The position numbers were made by a program, and so were the translations under genes. From positions 1 through 13,317 of the forward strand of contig LKUE01000210.1 of assembly GCA_001412365.1 (NCBI GenBank): a stretch of DNA of 13,317 nt, read 5' to 3'. Source of the DNA: Desulfuromonas sp. SDB (GTDB taxonomy: Bacteria; SDB-A). Position 1 is the first letter of the stretch; every line of letters begins with the position of its first letter. Of the stretch, positions 2,155-13,309 are shown piece after piece. A model generated the notes under the pieces. It worked only from the letters and a program-made list of their open reading frames with translations. It did not search any database and was not told the DNA's origin.

Positions 2155-4077
2155 TTACTCGCCGTTATTAAGTCTTTTCAGCAACTCAATATCTGCCCTC
2201 ATCTGTTCCAGTTCACTTCTCAACTGTTGATTCTCTGAAACAAGATCATCAATATGTTCATTTAATTGCTGATTTTCCATAGTTAAATTATCAATACGGG
2301 TATTCAGCTCAGTTATATCAACATTGATATCATCAATAAAACTTAGAAATTCTTCATTTTCTTTTACCAGAGCTTGAATTGCCAACAGGGCAACTCCGCT
2401 GACATCTAAACTGGCTAAATACCGATTGTCATTACCGGTTTTAAACAGTTCATAGAAATCTTCCGCCACCGGGGAAATATGATAGACTCCTTCCTCTCCC
2501 TTGTAGTTGTACCTGAAAACATCCAGCGTTTTGACCAGTTCCAGTATCTTTGCCGGATCAGGTCTGGTGAAATTTTCCTTGAAAGTCCGGGAACAGCCGT
2601 TGGTCCAGATTCCTCCCGTGGTCAAATATGCTCCATTACCATTGGAAGTATTAGTTCCCACATGTACTGGATATAGAGGATCTTCCCGGTTGATTCCAAA
2701 CTGATATTGATAAACATCTCCATCCCCGAATACCACATCATAATCATCGGCTACATCAAAAGAGTTGGCAGTACTTCCTATTCCAAAAGCGAAAGAATAA
2801 TCACCGGAGACATTTACCTGATATCCTCCGGGGATGGTTGAACAAATTCCAGAACTGGTGTTCCAAAACCCCCCGGATATAGTTGAATAGAGATTTGAAC
2901 AGGTATTTAGCTGTCCCCCTCCAAGCGTGGAGAAATCACCGGATGCGGTGTTATTACCTCCTCCTCCGATGGTAGCATAATCGTTTGCACTGTGGTTATA
3001 TTGTCCTCCCCCAATTGCCCCGTACATACTGTCACAGGTGTTATAATATCCTCCGGAAATGGTTGCTCCTGCAGAATAACAAGTGTTTCCTTCTCCCCCT
3101 CCCACCGTTGAACGGTTGCCTGAGCTGGTGTTTTGATATCCTCCCGCTACCGTGGTATAAAAATAAGAAGCAATATTCCCTCTTCCTCCCCCTATGGTTG
3201 AATATTCACCGGAGATGTTGTTCTGATATCCACCGGCAATGGTTGAATAAGTTTCGGAGATGATATTGTCCCTTCCACCTCCTACCGCAGAATAAGAAGC
3301 GGAAGTTTGGTTGTTCCTTCCACCGGCAATAGTTGCACCACTACCGGAATTGTTGTTATCTTCTCCTCCTCCCACTGTGGAATAAGTAGCAGAACTGGTA
3401 TTATTGTGTCCTCCTCCCACTGTACAGTAAAGATAATTTTGCCCGGAAGCTCCGGTAATGCAGTTGTTCCCAAGATTTACATGAGTTTGCACAAATGTGC
3501 CATGGAGGGTGTTCCCGAACATAGCCAATCCGTATTGGGCTGATGGGTAAAGTACGTTGCCGGATATATTCCAGTCATTATCTGGTGCTCCATTTACCAC
3601 ATAATCAGCAGTGTCAGCAAAGAGAGATCTAATTGAGTAGGCAGTGGTAACGATTTTTTTCCGGGGGGACAGAACCTCTCCCTCCACCGTAGTCTGTAAC
3701 CATAAGGGATATCCAGTAAAACTATCAGGATCTAGCGGAGTTATGCTTCCTAAAATTACATTGAATATCCCATTTTCCACCGGAACGTCATTATAGGTCT
3801 CTGACCAGAAAGAACTACCTCCGGTTTCAGTGGTAAACAATTCAAATACCATATCCAGATTTGCTGTAACCGGCGTTGTATCAGCAGTTAAAATTAAATA
3901 TCCCTGATAGTTCATCTGGGTAGGAATATTTTTCCCTTCCAAAGTGGATATTCCTATTTCCGACCTTATATCGTTTATCCCTGTATTCGAATCAATAATC
4001 TGTTCATTTCCTAAACCAATTATCATGGTGATCAATAAAGTGACAACTGATGCTGTTTTAATAACCAAGGTCAACAT
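2155..4077 (-). CDS. YadA-head-like repeat fibre with S74-type C-terminal domain and coiled coil
   Basis: I start this 640-residue protein at ATG 4077 because AAAGGAGGT (4089-4081) lies just upstream; a longer frame opens 42 bases earlier and would bury that site in codons. Residues 1-24 form a signal peptide. Residues 53-161 are the N-terminal domain often seen in tail-fibre-like proteins (MNYQGYL, WSETYNDVPVENGIFNVILG, LSPRKKIVTTAYSIRS). Residues 217-426 are fourteen contiguous 15-residue units of the form Y-S-T-[IV]-G-G-G-x-x-N with no insertion or deletion, predicted to form a left-handed beta-roll like the YadA head. Residues 496-575 resemble a peptidase S74/intramolecular chaperone domain (CSRTFKENF, DVFRYNYK, HISPVAEDFYELF). 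Residues 576-640 are a heptad coiled coil (ENQQLNEHIDDL). It is probably a trimeric surface fibre. It has no sorting domain of its own; the next gene in the operon does. Confidence 0.85.
   Translation of the reverse strand: MLTLVIKTASVVTLLITMIIGLGNEQIIDSNTGINDIRSEIGISTLEGKNIPTQMNYQGYLILTADTTPVTANLDMVFELFTTETGGSSFWSETYNDVPVENGIFNVILGSITPLDPDSFTGYPLWLQTTVEGEVLSPRKKIVTTAYSIRSLFADTADYVVNGAPDNDWNISGNVLYPSAQYGLAMFGNTLHGTFVQTHVNLGNNCITGASGQNYLYCTVGGGHNNTSSATYSTVGGGEDNNNSGSGATIAGGRNNQTSASYSAVGGGRDNIISETYSTIAGGYQNNISGEYSTIGGGRGNIASYFYTTVAGGYQNTSSGNRSTVGGGEGNTCYSAGATISGGYYNTCDSMYGAIGGGQYNHSANDYATIGGGGNNTASGDFSTLGGGQLNTCSNLYSTISGGFWNTSSGICSTIPGGYQVNVSGDYSFAFGIGSTANSFDVADDYDVVFGDGDVYQYQFGINREDPLYPVHVGTNTSNGNGAYLTTGGIWTNGCSRTFKENFTRPDPAKILELVKTLDVFRYNYKGEEGVYHISPVAEDFYELFKTGNDNRYLASLDVSGVALLAIQALVKENEEFLSFIDDINVDITELNTRIDNLTMENQQLNEHIDDLVSENQQLRSELEQMRADIELLKRLNNGE
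2756..3388 (-). repeat. Fourteen tandem 45-bp units encoding a 15-residue beta-roll repeat
   Basis: Within the fibre gene the repeat units are exactly in register. Gly occupies unit positions 6 and 7 in all fourteen, and Asn occupies position 10 in the first thirteen; the last unit has Val there. Position 1 is usually Tyr, or Phe, Gly, Arg or Cys. Five cysteines are scattered through the array. The DNA copies have diverged, so this is an old protein-level repeat rather than a recent expansion. Confidence 0.85.
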
Positions 4078-4119
4078 ACCACCTCCTTTGTTTAAAGTTG
4101 AATTTAAATTTAAATACAA

Positions 4120-4784: not shown

Positions 4785-6215
4785 ATGTTTAAGAAGATGT
4801 TATCACTAGTCGTATTATTGGTATCTATTTCAACAATGTTAACTGGAGGGTGGAGTAAGTATTTTGGTGGTTCCGATGAAGATATGGGAATCTCTGTCCA
4901 GCAGACCATTGATGGAGGATATATAGTTTGCGGATTTACCGATAGCTGGGGTCCGGGAAATGAAAGTGTTTATTTGTTAAAGACTGACGATCTTGGGGAA
5001 ATGACCTGGGCTAAAATTTTCGGAGGAGTTGAAACTGATGTTGGATTTTCAATTCAGCAATGCACTGACAGCGGTTATATTATCTGCGGTTATACCGAAT
5101 CTTCCGGAGCAGGGAATTATGACATTTACCTGCTTAAAACCGACGTTAACGGAGTTCTCAGTTGGACTAAAACACTGGGGGGAACTTATGAAGATAGAGG
5201 TAAATTCATTTGCCAAACTGCTGATAACGGATTTATCCTGACCGGTCTTACCTATTCCTATGGAGCAGGTTTGTCAGATGCTTTTCTAATAAAATTGGAT
5301 GATCAGGGGAATACATTATGGTCCAAATATTTTGGAGGAATTAATCATGATTGGTGTGCTTCAGTACAGCAAACATCAGACGGTGGTTATATTATTTGCG
5401 GGGGCACTTCTTCCTATGGTTCGGGTGATTATGATGTCTATTTAATTAAGACTGATCAGGACGGAAATGACTTATGGATAGAGACCTTTGGAGGAGCTCA
5501 AAGTGATAATGGTTACTCAGTAAAACAAACCAGTGACGGAGGATATATAATTGTCGGGGATACAAAATCTTATGGAGCTGGAATAAATGATGTCTATGTG
5601 ATCAAAACCGATAGCTGTGGAGATACATTATGGACTAGGATTTTTGGAGGTTCAACTCATGATATTGCTTACTGTATTGATGAAACCCGTTCCGGTAATT
5701 TTATTATAACCGGAGAAACTAGTTCCTTCGGAGCTGGATATAATGATGTTTATCTGATCAGTATTTCCGCTTCCGGAGATTTAATTTGGTCTAAAACTCT
5801 TGGGGGAATCGGTGCAGATTGCGGGAGATCAGTCAGTTATACTGCTGATGGAGGATATATTATCACCGGTGGTACAACCTCTTACGGAGCAGGAAACTCC
5901 GACATTTATCTACTCAAAACTGATTCTAACGGAGTGGCAGTTGAGGAAACGGTAATTTACTATCCTCACCAGATTTCTTATTCCATAAATCAGAGGGGAA
6001 GTAATTTAGTTAGTTTGGAATTTTCACTATCCCAGAGCAGTAATGTCCAATTAGATATATACGATGTATCGGGAAGATTTATCTCCACCCCATTGACTGG
6101 CTCATATTCAGCAGGAAATCATAATGTCACCTTCAATATGGAAAACAAAGGAGTTTACTTCTTCAGTATGAAAATTGATCAAACAACTCACACTGGGAAA
6201 TATATAATATTTTAG
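4785..6215 (+). CDS. Secreted seven-bladed beta-propeller protein with sorting domain (paralogue 1)
   Basis: The start is supported by AGGAGG five bases before the ATG. The 476-residue product has a signal peptide (residues 1-20), then seven contiguous repeats whose first tryptophans are at 23, 75, 127, 179, 231, 283 and 335, a spacing of exactly 52. Each unit follows W-K-FGG, D-G-SVQQT-DGGYI, G-T-SYGAG, D-YLIKTD--G, a four-strand blade pattern, so the protein should fold as a closed seven-bladed propeller. Residues 387-476 are a type A sorting domain (LDIYDVSGRFIS, GVYFFSM, KYIIF). I see no catalytic signature. The ligand is unknown and the likely role is binding at the cell surface or in secreted form. 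The next gene is its closest paralogue, 116 bases downstream on the same strand. Confidence 0.85.
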   Translation: MFKKMLSLVVLLVSISTMLTGGWSKYFGGSDEDMGISVQQTIDGGYIVCGFTDSWGPGNESVYLLKTDDLGEMTWAKIFGGVETDVGFSIQQCTDSGYIICGYTESSGAGNYDIYLLKTDVNGVLSWTKTLGGTYEDRGKFICQTADNGFILTGLTYSYGAGLSDAFLIKLDDQGNTLWSKYFGGINHDWCASVQQTSDGGYIICGGTSSYGSGDYDVYLIKTDQDGNDLWIETFGGAQSDNGYSVKQTSDGGYIIVGDTKSYGAGINDVYVIKTDSCGDTLWTRIFGGSTHDIAYCIDETRSGNFIITGETSSFGAGYNDVYLISISASGDLIWSKTLGGIGADCGRSVSYTADGGYIITGGTTSYGAGNSDIYLLKTDSNGVAVEETVIYYPHQISYSINQRGSNLVSLEFSLSQSSNVQLDIYDVSGRFISTPLTGSYSAGNHNVTFNMENKGVYFFSMKIDQTTHTGKYIIF

Positions 6216-6331: not shown

Positions 6332-7759
6332 ATGGATAGAAAAATTTTTATTATTACTTTAGTTCTGTTTTTATTTTCATCAATCTTATCAGCAGGATGG
6401 ACTCAGTATTACGGAGAAATAGATGATGAAACTGGATTTTTCGTACAGCAGACTTTGGATGGAGGATATATATTAACTGGACATACTACATCCTGGGGAT
6501 CCGAACAAGAGGATGTCTTTCTGATAAAAACCAACCAGGCAGGGGATATTAGCTGGTTAAAAACTTTCGGAGGAGTAGACCAAGATGAAGGACATTCAGT
6601 TCAGCAGTGCTCAGACGAGGGGTACATCATCTGCGGTCAAACTTACTCTTATGGAGCCGGAAACGCTGATGTTTACCTGATCAAAACAGATGAATGCGGA
6701 AATCTCTGCTGGACTAAAACCATCGGAGGAATTAATAGCGATGGAGGTCATGGTATCCGGCAAACTTCCGACGGAGGATTCATCCTCACCGGTATAACAT
6801 CATCCTATGGATCAGGAACGGATACTTACCTGGTAAAAACTGACAGTTTGGGAAACACACAATGGTCCAGATATTTCGGAGGATCGGACATGGAGTTCGG
6901 ATATTCAGTGCTGCAAACCCAGGATGGTGGATATATTGTATGCGGGGGAACCTGTTCATTCGGAGCAGGTCAATGGGATATTTATCTTATAAAGACTGAT
7001 CAAAACGGGAATGCAGTTTGGACCAAGACCTATGGGGATACCGGTACAGATATTGGATATTCTATAAAGCAAACCAGTGATTGCGGTTATATCATTACCG
7101 GATTAACCGATTCTTACGGAGCAGGTTTAAAGGATGTTTATCTTATCAAAACCGACAGTTGCGGAGACAGCATCTGGGCAAAAACCTACGGAGGTTCTGA
7201 AAATGATTTTACCTCCTCTATTGATATAACTCCCTCCGGGAATTTTATAGTGACCGGGGTAACTAATTCCTACGGAGCGGGATCATCGGATATTTACCTT
7301 CTTTATCTGACATCCTCCGGGAATCCGATCTGGACCAAAACATTCGGGGGAATTAATGCAGACATCGGAATATGCACTCAACATACAGCAGAAGGAGGAT
7401 TCATTTTGACTGGAGCAACTGAATCTTTCGGCTCAGGGGGTTCTGATATTATTCTGATCAAGACTGATATTAACGGGGTGGCGGTTGAAGAATCGGTTAT
7501 TTCTCCCCCTAATCAAATTAATTACAGTATTAAATCGCTGGACAATAATGATATTAGTCTGGAATTATCCTTACCCCAAACTAGTGATATTCGGTTAGAT
7601 ATATATGATGTCTCGGGAAGATACATTTCCACCCCTCTGGATGGTTCATATACTCCAGGAATTCACAATATCAGTTTCAATATGGAAAAACAGGGAGTTT
7701 ATTTCTTCAATTTAAAATTTAACCAGTCCACCCACCAGGGAAAGTTTACTGTTATATAA
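6332..7759 (+). CDS. Secreted seven-bladed beta-propeller protein with sorting domain (paralogue 2)
   Basis: CGGAGG lies five bases before the ATG. The 475-residue protein has the same plan as its upstream neighbour: signal peptide 1-21, seven blades with leading tryptophans at 23, 75, 127, 178, 230, 282 and 334, then a sorting domain (LDIYDVSGRYIS, GVYFFNL, GKFTVI). All blades are 52 residues except the third, which has lost one residue in its SYGSG-DTYL loop. The linker NGVAVEE and most of the sorting domain are nearly identical to paralogue 1, indicating a fairly recent tandem duplication. Blade surfaces differ mainly in the loops after FGG and around SYGAG, where binding specificity would lie. 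The gene converges on the lipoprotein gene with only three bases between the stops. Confidence 0.85.
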   Translation: MDRKIFIITLVLFLFSSILSAGWTQYYGEIDDETGFFVQQTLDGGYILTGHTTSWGSEQEDVFLIKTNQAGDISWLKTFGGVDQDEGHSVQQCSDEGYIICGQTYSYGAGNADVYLIKTDECGNLCWTKTIGGINSDGGHGIRQTSDGGFILTGITSSYGSGTDTYLVKTDSLGNTQWSRYFGGSDMEFGYSVLQTQDGGYIVCGGTCSFGAGQWDIYLIKTDQNGNAVWTKTYGDTGTDIGYSIKQTSDCGYIITGLTDSYGAGLKDVYLIKTDSCGDSIWAKTYGGSENDFTSSIDITPSGNFIVTGVTNSYGAGSSDIYLLYLTSSGNPIWTKTFGGINADIGICTQHTAEGGFILTGATESFGSGGSDIILIKTDINGVAVEESVISPPNQINYSIKSLDNNDISLELSLPQTSDIRLDIYDVSGRYISTPLDGSYTPGIHNISFNMEKQGVYFFNLKFNQSTHQGKFTVI

Positions 7760-7762
7760 ATA

Positions 7763-8104
7763 CTATTCTTCCCACCCATCTCCCCCTGACCAGAAGCAGG
7801 GAGAATAATTGCAGTAATGACAGCAGAATGAGATATCCAGATTTTCCAGTTTAGCTTCAGGATAACTATAAAGTATTTCAATTAGTTGATCAAGATGGGG
7901 TTCTACTTCATTATAGGATTGATTTAAATCTATGGCGGGAAGATGAACTCCCTCATCCTCAAGGGTGATAAGAGCCACATGGGTAAAATTCCGGTGACGG
8001 GATTGGAGGGCTTGAATGATATGATAATCAGGATCCTGCTGAGTTATGGTGGTACAGTTAACAATGAAAAGTAAAGGCAGAAAAAATATAAATATATTTT
8101 TCAT
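7763..8104 (-). CDS. Small Cys-rich lipoprotein of unknown function
   Basis: I start at ATG 8104, two codons inside a longer GTG-started frame, because AGAGAGGTG then serves as the ribosome site. The 113-residue product begins MKNIFIFFLPLLFIVNC, a signal peptide with a lipobox whose cysteine is residue 17. The -1 residue is Asn rather than the usual Gly, Ala or Ser, so lipidation is likely but not certain. The middle is a soluble mixed alpha/beta stretch with no recognised family. The end carries FCCHYCNYSPCFW, four cysteines in a CC-x2-C-x4-C arrangement, followed by an acidic GGDGWEE tail. That pattern could bind a metal or form disulfides. It stands alone on its strand between the propeller pair and the repeat region. 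Confidence 0.7.
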   Translation of the reverse strand: MKNIFIFFLPLLFIVNCTTITQQDPDYHIIQALQSRHRNFTHVALITLEDEGVHLPAIDLNQSYNEVEPHLDQLIEILYSYPEAKLENLDISFCCHYCNYSPCFWSGGDGWEE

Positions 8105-8308
8105 TATCACCTCTCTTAAAACATTTTAATTATACCATGTTTACTAACAATTAGCAATGAAAATTGAAAATTTGTAAGTTTTCCGGAATTGTTTGCTATT
8201 ACTGAAAACAGATCATTACCTACACTATGGAAGGTTAACAGGATGCTACACCACTCTTCTTATTTTAACCAATGAGTCCAGCCCAGCCCCAGGGGCATGG
8301 AATGCAGA

Positions 8309-8553: not shown

Positions 8554-9603
8554 TTATCTAATTTTAATTATGGTCTTAGAATCCTGAACTCCATCCCCGG
8601 ATAATTCCACCCGATAGATTCCCGTATTCAATTCAGTTCCATTATTATCTCTGCCATCCCAGTTGAATACACTGTTTTCACTGATCACCGTTCCTGAAGA
8701 AAGAGTGCGTACTTCTCTTCCGGTTAAGTCAAAAATTTTAACTGAGAGAACTGCAGGATTTTCAACAAAGACTGGAATAAATGCAGTGGTGGAAAATGGA
8801 TTGGGATAAGGTTTTCCCAAGGAAAATACATCGGAATGTGTTACCGGGTTAGGATCTTCCTCTACCGCATTAAATGCGGATATTTCAATATGAGCACTCT
8901 GATGGATTTGTTTTGTTCCGGCATGAGATTGAAGCCATACTGCAAAATAGACATCAGTTGGATCAAAATGCCACCAGGTTCCCACAAAAGTGTAGGGTAT
9001 ATTAACATAAAGTGTCTCCGGATAATTTCCGGTAAAATTTATCACCGTACCATTGTAGTTCGGATACATCTTGCGGAGAGGGAAATGAAATTCAGTAAAA
9101 TTCCCTGCCCCGTAGGGGACATGATGTGAACAGGCAGCAATATGAAGGTGATAAGGAGTAACTCCGGGTTCCTGTTCGGCAATAATGGTTACGTTAACTT
9201 CTCCGGTCATTAAATCAGGCTGAGCAGTTCCTTCAACTAATAACTCAACATAACAGGGTACTGCCATGGCACTGGTATAGGCAGAATTCAGTGCTCCGGT
9301 GGAAGTAGGAGAAAACATTGATCCCCCGTCCATATTTGCTCTGGGTATCACTGACCCTCCGTAAAACTGAAATCTCGCCCAGCCATCAACAGTGTACAAC
9401 GGTTCACTGGAGTACAGCTGATATTTAAGAGCAGTTAAAGAATCCCAGTTATTATTTATAAAATTGTTCTGCAAACTTGCAGAACTGGCACAGCCCCCTC
9501 AATAAGCGCCGCTGTGAATTTCCAGCATAGGCTGCCGGGTAGCAGCAGTCAGTGTCATCGCTAAAACAATTAAGACACTGATAAGAAAAAATGCTTTGTA
9601 CAT
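8554..9603 (-). CDS. Predicted exported selenoprotein: thioredoxin-like/Omp28-like, UGGC motif, sorting domain
   Basis: The open frame after the TGA has only a TTG start (9474), yet reading back in frame gives an ATG at 9603 with AAGGAGG six bases upstream, a clear signal peptide (MYKAFFLISVLIVLAMTLTAA, 1-21) and TRQPMLEIHSGAY, interrupted once by TGA at codon 35 (9501-9499). The next residues are GGC, so the motif is U-G-G-C where thioredoxin-like relatives have C-x-x-C. A SECIS-like hairpin follows. Residues 23-110 look like the Omp28-type thioredoxin fold, including a probable cis-proline (VIPRANMDGG, P87). A beta domain with AACSHH follows, and residues 260-349 are a sorting domain (PYPNPF, IFDLTGREV, WDGRDNNG, GIYRVEL). 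Full length is 349 residues. It is a likely extracytoplasmic thiol/selenol redox enzyme of unknown substrate. The alternative is a nonsense mutation. No sel genes are in view. Confidence 0.8.
9466..9485 (-). promoter_or_regulatory. SECIS-like stem-loop downstream of the in-frame UGA
   Basis: In the mRNA, 13 bases after the UGA, GUUCUGCAA-GU-UUGCAGAAC forms a perfect stem. With the two inner A-U pairs open it is a 7-bp stem with a 6-base AAGUUU loop. Bacterial SECIS elements need a stem-loop within the coding region just after UGA with an unpaired G-U at the apex (bound by SelB). Here the GU is bases 23-24 after UGA, compared with 20-21 in E. coli fdhF. The sequence translates as ASSASLQNN within the gene. 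Confidence 0.7.
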
Positions 9604-9936
9604 TATTTTCCTCCTTAAAGTTTCATTATATTTATAGAAAATTTAATAATTTGTCAATTAATTGATAAATATAATTGTAATTTATTTGATAATAATTTAA
9701 TCTTTTCAGAATTCTCTCCATTACAAAAATTTATTTATTAATGATTTTTCTTCAAGTTAAATATATAATTTTATCAGTTTTTAAATATTTAGATAATTTT
9801 GCTCAATTAATTATAGCAGAAAAATAACAATTAAACTAGTTAATATTTTAAGATTTGTAATGATTTTACCAAATATTTTGCCAGGAATAATTATCATAAC
9901 TATAACCAATTCAAATATAGTTGAAAGGAGGACTAG
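9604..9936. other. Divergent promoter region
   Basis: This AT-rich region lies between the divergent genes at 9603 and 9937. For the minus-strand gene a consensus TTGACA (9657-9652) lies upstream of TATAAA (spacer 15) and TATAAT (9630-9625, spacer 21). Neither spacing is ideal, so the true -10 is uncertain. I see no gene or RNA structure in the rest. Confidence 0.5.
9878..9906 (+). promoter_or_regulatory. Sigma-70-type promoter of the Asp-box protein gene
   Basis: TTGCCA (9878-9883) and TATAAC (9901-9906) are separated by exactly 17 bases, each differing from consensus at one position. Transcription would start near 9913, leaving a leader of about 24 bases that contains the strong ribosome site AAAGGAGG (9924-9931). 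Confidence 0.7.
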
Positions 9937-11860: not shown

Positions 11861-11887
11861 TAGTTTAAATTTTCAGTGAGGGTGAAA

Positions 11888-13309
11888 ATGAAAAAGATTA
11901 TTATAATTTCCTCAGCGTTTCTTTTTATCTTATTCAATTCTATTTCCGGTTGGACCAGGTATTACGGGGGCACTTCATGGGATGAAGGATATTCAGTGAA
12001 ACAGACCAGTGATGGGGGTTTTATTGTTGTCGGATACACCTACTCCGCAGGAATAAATGGAGATGTCTATTTGATAAAAACCAATGAACATGGAGACACA
12101 ATTTGGACTAGTATAATCAGCGGTGAGTTTTTCGATGCAGGACAATCAGTCCAGCAGACCGAGGACGGAGGATATATCATTGGAGGAGTATATGATGGCT
12201 TGGTAAGTTCTGATTTCTGGCTGATTAAAACTGACAATTTGGGAGATACAGTTTGGACAAAAAAATTCGGAGATCAATACTGTCAATGGTGCTTTTCGGT
12301 GGAGCAAACTGCTGACCAAGGATATATTGCAGTAGGTTACTCTAAATTTATCAGCCCAGGATCAATAGACATCTGGCTGGTGAGAGTTGACAGACTGGGG
12401 GATTCAGTTTGGATTAGAAATTATGGCAGTCCTCAGTACAATGATGTAGGTTATTCAGTTAAACAAACTTTGGACAGCGGCTTTATTGTAGCGGGAAGCA
12501 GATGGTCTGAACTTTCCAATTCCAATGATTTTTATATTTTTAAAATTGATATTGAGGGAAATCCAGTTTGGGAAAAAAGTTTTGGAGGTAATGATCATGA
12601 TGATGCCTATTCACTTCAAATAACTTCTGATCAAGGTTTTATTCTCACTGGTTACACAAAATCTTTTGGAGGAGGTTCTGCAGATATTTGGTTAGTGAAG
12701 ACAGACAGTAACGGGGATAGTTTATGGACCAAGACATTTGGCGGGTCTGACTGGGACGAAGGAAGAGAAATACAGACAACTGAAGATGGGGGTTATATCA
12801 TCATCGGTTCTACTCAATCCTTTGGTTCCGGCAATTTTGATTTCTGGTTAGTCAGGACCGATAGCTTAGGAGATACAATTTGGACTAAAACTTTTGGAGG
12901 AAGTAATGACGACTGGGGCTACTCTGTCCAGCAAACTAACGACGGTGGTTTTATTATAACCGGAATTACCCAATCTTATGGAAACGGATTTTCCGACATC
13001 TGGCTTATTAAAACTGATGCCCAGGGATCAATGGTGGAACAGACAATTATTGAAAATCCATCTAAGTTAACATTTAATCTAAGGCAAATAGTAGATAAAA
13101 CTGTAAATATCAGATTTAACCTGCCAATAAGCAGTTTTGTTGAATTAAAAATTTATGATATTTCAGGAAGGTTTATTTCAAATCCTCTTTCCGGATTTTT
13201 AGATTCCGGAAATCATGATATCAATATAAAATTGGATAATTCGGGCATTTACTTCTTAAAACTAAAAATTAATCAACAAATTGAAACCGTAAAATTCTCC
13301 ATTTTTTAA
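11888..13309 (+). CDS. Secreted seven-bladed beta-propeller protein with sorting domain (paralogue 3)
   Basis: I start at ATG 11888. An in-frame GTG exists 12 bases earlier, but GAGGGTG around 11878 is better read as the ribosome site, and MKKIIIISSAFLFILF is then a normal signal peptide. The 473-residue protein has seven blades with leading tryptophans at 22, 73, 123, 175, 228, 280 and 332, spacings of 50-53 rather than the strict 52 of paralogue 1. This fits an older divergence or relaxed constraint. Blades three to seven repeatedly use D-WLVKTD where the other paralogues use D-YLIKTD. Residues 384-473 form the sorting domain (LKIYDISGRFIS, GIYFLKL, VKFSIF). It shares domain order with the tandem pair but is separated from it by three other genes. 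The ligand is unknown. Confidence 0.85.
   Translation: MKKIIIISSAFLFILFNSISGWTRYYGGTSWDEGYSVKQTSDGGFIVVGYTYSAGINGDVYLIKTNEHGDTIWTSIISGEFFDAGQSVQQTEDGGYIIGGVYDGLVSSDFWLIKTDNLGDTVWTKKFGDQYCQWCFSVEQTADQGYIAVGYSKFISPGSIDIWLVRVDRLGDSVWIRNYGSPQYNDVGYSVKQTLDSGFIVAGSRWSELSNSNDFYIFKIDIEGNPVWEKSFGGNDHDDAYSLQITSDQGFILTGYTKSFGGGSADIWLVKTDSNGDSLWTKTFGGSDWDEGREIQTTEDGGYIIIGSTQSFGSGNFDFWLVRTDSLGDTIWTKTFGGSNDDWGYSVQQTNDGGFIITGITQSYGNGFSDIWLIKTDAQGSMVEQTIIENPSKLTFNLRQIVDKTVNIRFNLPISSFVELKIYDISGRFISNPLSGFLDSGNHDINIKLDNSGIYFLKLKINQQIETVKFSIF

Follow-up and report, generated by a model that had tools for sequence, protein, structure and literature searches.

The window analysed here is the whole stretch of 13,317 nucleotides, and its minus strand carries a candidate gene for an exported selenoprotein (Table 1). 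Upstream of ATG 9603 the minus strand reads directly as AAGGAGGAAAATA. Codon 35 (9501-9499) is the sole TGA in the frame, and 314 sense codons follow it before the frame closes with TAA. The ribosome-binding site, the start codon and the single TGA are all seen as described in the initial annotation of this DNA. The context of the active site is AYUGGCASS, or LEIHSGAY-U-GGC in its longer form.

Table 1. Features of the predicted selenoprotein gene and its product (positions refer to the window)
Feature	Position	Strand	Details	Basis
Predicted selenoprotein gene	8554..9603	-	349 codons and TAA (8556-8554); UGA (predicted Sec) at codon 35	frame read; relatives with TGA or Cys in the column
Ribosome-binding site AAGGAGGA	9608..9615 (± a base or two)	-	immediately 5´ of ATG 9603	direct reading
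Predicted Sec-UGA codon	9499..9501	-	position 1 of UGGC redox motif; partner residue Cys38	
bSECIS-like hairpin GUUCUGCA-AGUU-UGCAGAAC	9466..9485	-	21 nt from UGA to apical loop; G is the second loop position	folding
Signal-peptide-like N-terminus	9541..9603	-	residues 1-21, hydrophobic, ending LTAA	read by eye; helix 2-15 in model
Thioredoxin-fold domain	9262..9537	-	about residues 23-114; invariant Tyr81 and Pro87	alignment, model, structure match
Beta-sandwich domain	8878..9249	-	about residues 119-242; also present in HBP35 and Omp28	model and structure match
T9SS type A C-terminal sorting domain	8557..8832	-	about residues 258-349	TIGR04183 and CTD structure matches

The list of open reading frames under genetic code table 11 contains only one entry here, 8554-9474, which starts from TTG 9474 downstream of the TGA and encodes 306 amino acids. 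Because this start lies 3´ of the TGA, a standard gene caller misses the signal-peptide-like N-terminus as well as the active site, which is the truncation that had been foreseen for this gene. One may take the ORF literally and assume two products: a first peptide would end after 34 residues at the TGA, and TTG 9474 would start a separate cytoplasmic protein of 306 aa. We consider this very improbable. Neither the first strand of the thioredoxin fold nor the first active-site residue lies beyond the TGA, the shorter protein would bear a T9SS tail but have no signal peptide, and protein-level conservation across species extends to the part before the TGA. The halves flanking the TGA align as a single protein with full-length relatives, at about 20-70% identity. 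Since homology is continuous across the TGA, chance is excluded, and we treat the locus as one gene of 349 codons.

Several other genes of the window are worth a brief description. Three paralogous repeat proteins of ~476 aa, SBBP/beta-propeller-like, are encoded on the plus strand (4785-6215, 6332-7759 and 11876-13309); the first of them, which was scanned, has a T9SS-type tail, and its two paralogs have similar ends. On the minus strand, downstream of the predicted selenoprotein gene, lies an orphan of 115 aa (7763-8110) with lipobox-like start (LFIVNC), Cys-rich tail (CCHYCNYSPCFW) and no family match; it might be a candidate redox partner. A minus-strand gene for 654 aa (2155-4119) combines a Peptidase_S74 (intramolecular chaperone) domain with trimeric fibre/adhesin-like repeats, and a plus-strand gene (1089-1541) encodes a DUF6036-type nucleotidyltransferase of the kind known from some toxin-antitoxin pairs.

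The fold of the 349-residue product was assigned from profile, paralogs and predicted model. Pfam and NCBIfam searches with the window protein find no thioredoxin or Omp28 domain and match the C-terminal tag alone. AlphaFold2, supplied with an alignment of the family, gives a model with mean pLDDT of 91.7, in which a thioredoxin fold is followed by a beta-sandwich and an Ig-like C-terminal domain; the thioredoxin-like fold proposed in the initial annotation is thus predicted at high confidence. Residue 35 directly precedes helix 36-40, and the invariant Pro87 directly precedes strand 88-91. The type A sorting tag, also proposed earlier, is recognized by TIGR04183 over residues 266-347 (34.3 bits against a cut-off of 23), while PF18962 remains slightly under its threshold (26.2 against 27). 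In structure search with the model, the tail matches the solved C-terminal domains (CTDs) of PorU (Z 12.5) and PorZ (Z 9.9).

Among solved structures the closest to the model is Porphyromonas gingivalis HBP35 (5y1a), which aligns to residues 19-246 with Z 24.6 (220 residues, 2.4 Å); sequence identity in this structural alignment is only ~10%. The two proteins are built alike: a signal, putative in the window protein, is followed by a thioredoxin domain, a beta-sandwich and a T9SS type A C-terminal domain. The active site of HBP35 consists of cysteines (WCGYC), and profile search aligns it with the UGGC motif of the window protein, where just Cys38 is retained and a predicted Sec, with its bSECIS-like hairpin, takes the first position. 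HBP35 has thioredoxin activity that requires both active-site cysteines, and a cell-surface form of it exists (PMC2907840).

Two more families share the thioredoxin and beta-sandwich parts. The first is the Omp28 lipoproteins (PF11551, NF033782; 2r2c, Z 10.0); unlike them, the window protein has no visible lipobox and has a T9SS tail, and its relatives score below the NF033782 cut-off. The second is the Atu2684/DUF1223 family (2axo, Z 19.7), in which the thioredoxin domain likewise precedes the beta-sandwich; it differs in having no Sec, and no T9SS tail in its aligned part. Among 25 aligned relatives, PF11551 (Omp28) matches 14, DUF1223 11 and NF045500 18, PF11551 and NF045500 at E of 1 or less, and all NCBIfam scores of relatives that we saw lie below the curated cut-offs.

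The remaining comparison is to GOS_C, a thioredoxin-fold UxxC selenoprotein described in 2008 from 74 Sec sequences (PMC2398784) and catalogued in 2026 as NF045500, an Omp28-related selenoprotein (PMC13188914). The window protein and GOS_C have in common a thioredoxin-like fold, a UxxC motif with Sec first and many Cys homologs. The NF045500 model does not match the window protein at E of 10 or less. It gives sub-cut-off matches to homologs from the same genome and to distant ones (44.7 bits for one paralog), and its 200-bit cut-off is reached by no relative in 386 genomes. As a side observation, positions about 265-313 of NF045500 match short repeats in many large proteins, and such sub-threshold matches are probably not Omp28 relatives. 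Taken as a whole, the window protein belongs with the HBP35/Omp28-type proteins, of which we take it to be a Sec form, and is distantly related to GOS_C/NF045500; it does not found a wholly new family.

The exchange of Sec for Cys can be followed within the source genome itself. Two tandem paralogs on one contig carry Cys motifs, CINC and CGPC (LEIFTGHECINC, FENFTNCACGPC), and a second TGA paralog lies on another contig (LEEYTSTSUGSC, with UGSC motif). The phylum of the window comprises four species genomes in the collection searched. All three genomes of the same family (G001, G002 and G003) have TGA in the same column; G002 and G003 contain more than one copy each, and G001 and G003 also have intact Cys copies. 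One of the same-family relatives with TGA in the column is found in JAFGIG010000101.1 (candidate division WOR-3 bacterium isolate Zod_Metabat.185). Its flanking genes differ from those of the window, so gene order is not conserved. On one contig of G003, two distinct TGA-type members (USGC and UPSC) lie ~6 kb apart.

A wider search of 386 genomes found a relative in 93 of them, and TGA recurs in the same column in distant, unrelated families. Position by position we checked 52 homologs, in which the column holds TGA (21) or Cys (31). The TGA falls on the same motif column in 21/21 position-checked TGA homologs with UxxC/CxxC motif; in motif-bearing homologs without TGA the residue is always Cys, never Gly or Trp. 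The homologs thus present the Cys/TGA mix that had been named as a check on codon 35, both inside the source genome and beyond it, and the claim that TGA replaces the first Cys of CxxC and is followed by GG-Cys agrees with the UGGC motif and the Cys in the homologs' column. One family member (L094) departs from this pattern: its motif is NVGCGUAA, with TGA two codons past the first Cys (C-x-U instead of UxxC).

In the gene tree, the window gene and three Sec relatives form a group with support of 100, which is nested in a seven-member Sec group (97) beside Cys paralogs. Parsimony counts 11 Sec/Cys changes, at least 6 of them forced by starred branches, in a tree where many deep branches are weakly supported. 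It is likely, judging from this tree, that Sec and Cys have switched repeatedly in the family.

Downstream of the UGA, at a distance of about 13-33 nt, the transcript may fold into a hairpin with 8-bp stem. The minimum free energy (MFE) of the 46-nt stretch folded here is -14.3 kcal/mol. Of 1000 synonymous recodings of the same protein stretch, only one gives a stem-loop as good as that of the window (z about -7, p 0.001). Published rules for bSECIS elements ask for a loop of 3-9 nt, a stem of 4-16 bp, a distance of 16-37 nt from the UGA, a G within the first two loop positions and an MFE of at most -7.5 (PMC13188914). The hairpin of the window lies within them, with an AGUU loop at +21, its 8 bp and -10.1 kcal/mol for the stem-loop. 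Comparable hairpins occupy about the same place in related genes and are spelled with other letters, e.g. CCAGC-CGUGA-GCUGG, GACAGUU-GGUC-AACUGUC and CCACUGC-GGA-GCAGUGG.

Across the 52 homologs, bSECIS-like hairpins go with TGA genes and not with Cys genes: the mean z against synonymous recodings is -2.68 for the 21 TGA loci and +0.29 for the 31 Cys loci (Mann-Whitney p 6e-8). Individual genes vary. Three close TGA relatives (L030, L047 and L048) have a contiguous stem of just 4 bp (-1.8 kcal/mol, p about 0.1), and in three further loci (L033, L039 and L088) no hairpin is better than chance when compared with synonymous recodings. Covariation evidence is thin. Among the seven closest TGA genes, a compensatory change is seen in one of the eight pairs (A-U to U-A) and four are invariant; we give more weight to the synonymous-recoding contrast. 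A search of the whole window and of the surroundings of the TGA against Rfam matched neither SECIS nor any other RNA family, and we do not hold this against the Sec reading because bacterial SECIS elements are too variable.

These data bear on the objection that the TGA is a sequencing error or a nonsense change of a former Cys codon in a pseudogene. A single base change converts TGT or TGC to TGA, and the source assembly is fragmented (433 contigs, 3.91% contamination). Against this stand the TGA in the same column in several species and in paralogs, JAFGIG010000101.1 included, an otherwise intact frame with conserved tail, and the hairpin that follows TGA genes and is absent after Cys genes. 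Furthermore, internal stops among the matches listed in the wider search are almost all TGA, 47 against 3 (two TAA and one TAG). We therefore reject the error or pseudogene, which is contradicted by TGA in independent species and has in our view a negligible chance of being true.

The source genome is equipped for Sec decoding. On one contig, selA (545.9 bits) and selB (333.5 bits) are adjacent to the gene of tRNA-Sec (selC, anticodon TCA). SelD is also present, and one copy has an in-frame TGA of its own (KAGUAAKIGPC). Hence all of selA, selB, selC and selD, whose presence had been suggested as a check, are in this genome. The two SelD copies lie on separate contigs (C432 and C363), one with in-frame TGA and the other without; the TGA-free copy sits in an open frame of 737 aa, probably a fusion.

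TGA is reassigned in some candidate phyla, and one could imagine that the codon stands for Gly or Trp throughout this genome, or that it is read through unspecifically, so that residue 35 is other than Sec. The column argues otherwise, as the aligned residue in motif homologs without TGA is Cys. TGA also terminates ordinary genes, in the source genome (L024, 102-566) as well as in same-family genomes (L030 and L047), which means that there is no wholesale reassignment. The remaining genes of the window, together with selA and selB, are open under table 11 without any in-frame TGA, and the tRNA-Sec with UCA anticodon is accompanied by selA and selB. Whole-genome reassignment is rejected on the Cys-only alternative in the column, the TGA stops elsewhere and the sel machinery; of all readings discussed here we give this one the least credence. 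The Cys/TGA column, the sel genes and the computed hairpin, with TGA kept as a stop, argue for what the initial annotation had inferred: UGA codon 35 is almost certainly decoded as Sec.

The genome also encodes type IX secretion components. SprA scores 461.9 bits against a cut-off of 200, five PorV-family proteins exceed their cut-off, and many proteins bear CTDs, neighbours in the window among them. A search for PorU sortase gave none above the curated cut-off in the source genome and many C25-peptidase-like matches as well as CTD matches; as PorU is not above cut-off, the protein could be either anchored or released. From the computed tail and the machinery genes we infer that the protein is very likely exported by T9SS. 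TGA homologs of other families have above-cut-off T9SS tails as well (34.7, 42.6, 27.7, 25.1, 30.8 and 34.6 bits in L031, L033, L039, L044, L100 and L105, respectively). The pairing of Sec with T9SS is therefore not peculiar to the window.

We propose the following course of events. UGA codon 35 would be read by the organism's own SelB and tRNA-Sec, guided by the hairpin that starts ~13 nt downstream. The putative N-terminal signal would take the protein across the inner membrane, and the C-terminal type A domain would pass it to the type IX machinery, resulting in display on the cell surface or release. Outside, Sec35 would most likely attack a disulfide of the substrate, and Cys38 would then resolve the selenenylsulfide. 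By analogy with HBP35, and given the computed fold and the UxxC motif, thiol/selenol-disulfide oxidoreductase activity is on the whole probable.

A free selenolate is a good binder of soft metals and a good reducer of peroxides. The protein may thus be a surface selenoprotein that binds a ligand, a metal or hemin, or reduces peroxide, instead of performing thiol-disulfide exchange. The nearest solved structure, HBP35, indeed binds hemin and aids its acquisition; still, the thioredoxin activity of HBP35 depends on both of its active-site cysteines (PMC2907840). Thiol-disulfide oxidoreductases have this layout, a CxxC/UxxC pair together with the invariant Tyr81 and Pro87, and we consider the binding or peroxide role unlikely, though far less so than the alternatives above. 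Our preferred reading is that of one exported selenoprotein of 349 residues, acting as a surface selenol/thiol-disulfide oxidoreductase of HBP35/Omp28 type, and we assign it a probability of about 0.8.

The initial annotation did not recognise the combination of signal peptide, thioredoxin-like fold, Sec and sorting tag as a described family. This claim is only partly right, since thioredoxin with T9SS tail is known from HBP35 and the Omp28-like protein with Sec from GOS_C; for the union of both, a T9SS-exported thioredoxin with Sec, our literature search, with subscription papers outside its reach, found no report. In the literature searched, one paper, on vent-plume genomes, contains both selenocysteine and type IX secretion, as single or double mentions. 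Neither a T9SS tail nor export to the surface comes up in the descriptions of GOS_C that we consulted (PMC2398784, PMC13188914), and the text of the 2026 selenoprotein catalogue mentions none of T9SS, PF18962, Omp28 and DUF1223 (PMC13188914).

We find it reasonably likely that T9SS-exported Sec thioredoxins of HBP35/Omp28 type form an undescribed class, present in several bacterial families and acting outside the outer membrane. If this is true, then such a class has been overlooked by gene callers and by current family models. Selenocysteine is costly and easily oxidised. Its presence on the outer cell surface would pose the question of what advantage a selenol has over a thiol there, and by what means it stays reduced. 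The source bacterium is uncultivated; its own Cys and Sec paralogs provide a ready comparison of both residues on one scaffold. The gene of the window marks a blind spot of annotation, being cut by standard gene calling and lying outside the curated Omp28 selenoprotein model. Because TGA members of the wider family occur in many genomes, many exported thioredoxins may carry wrong annotation.
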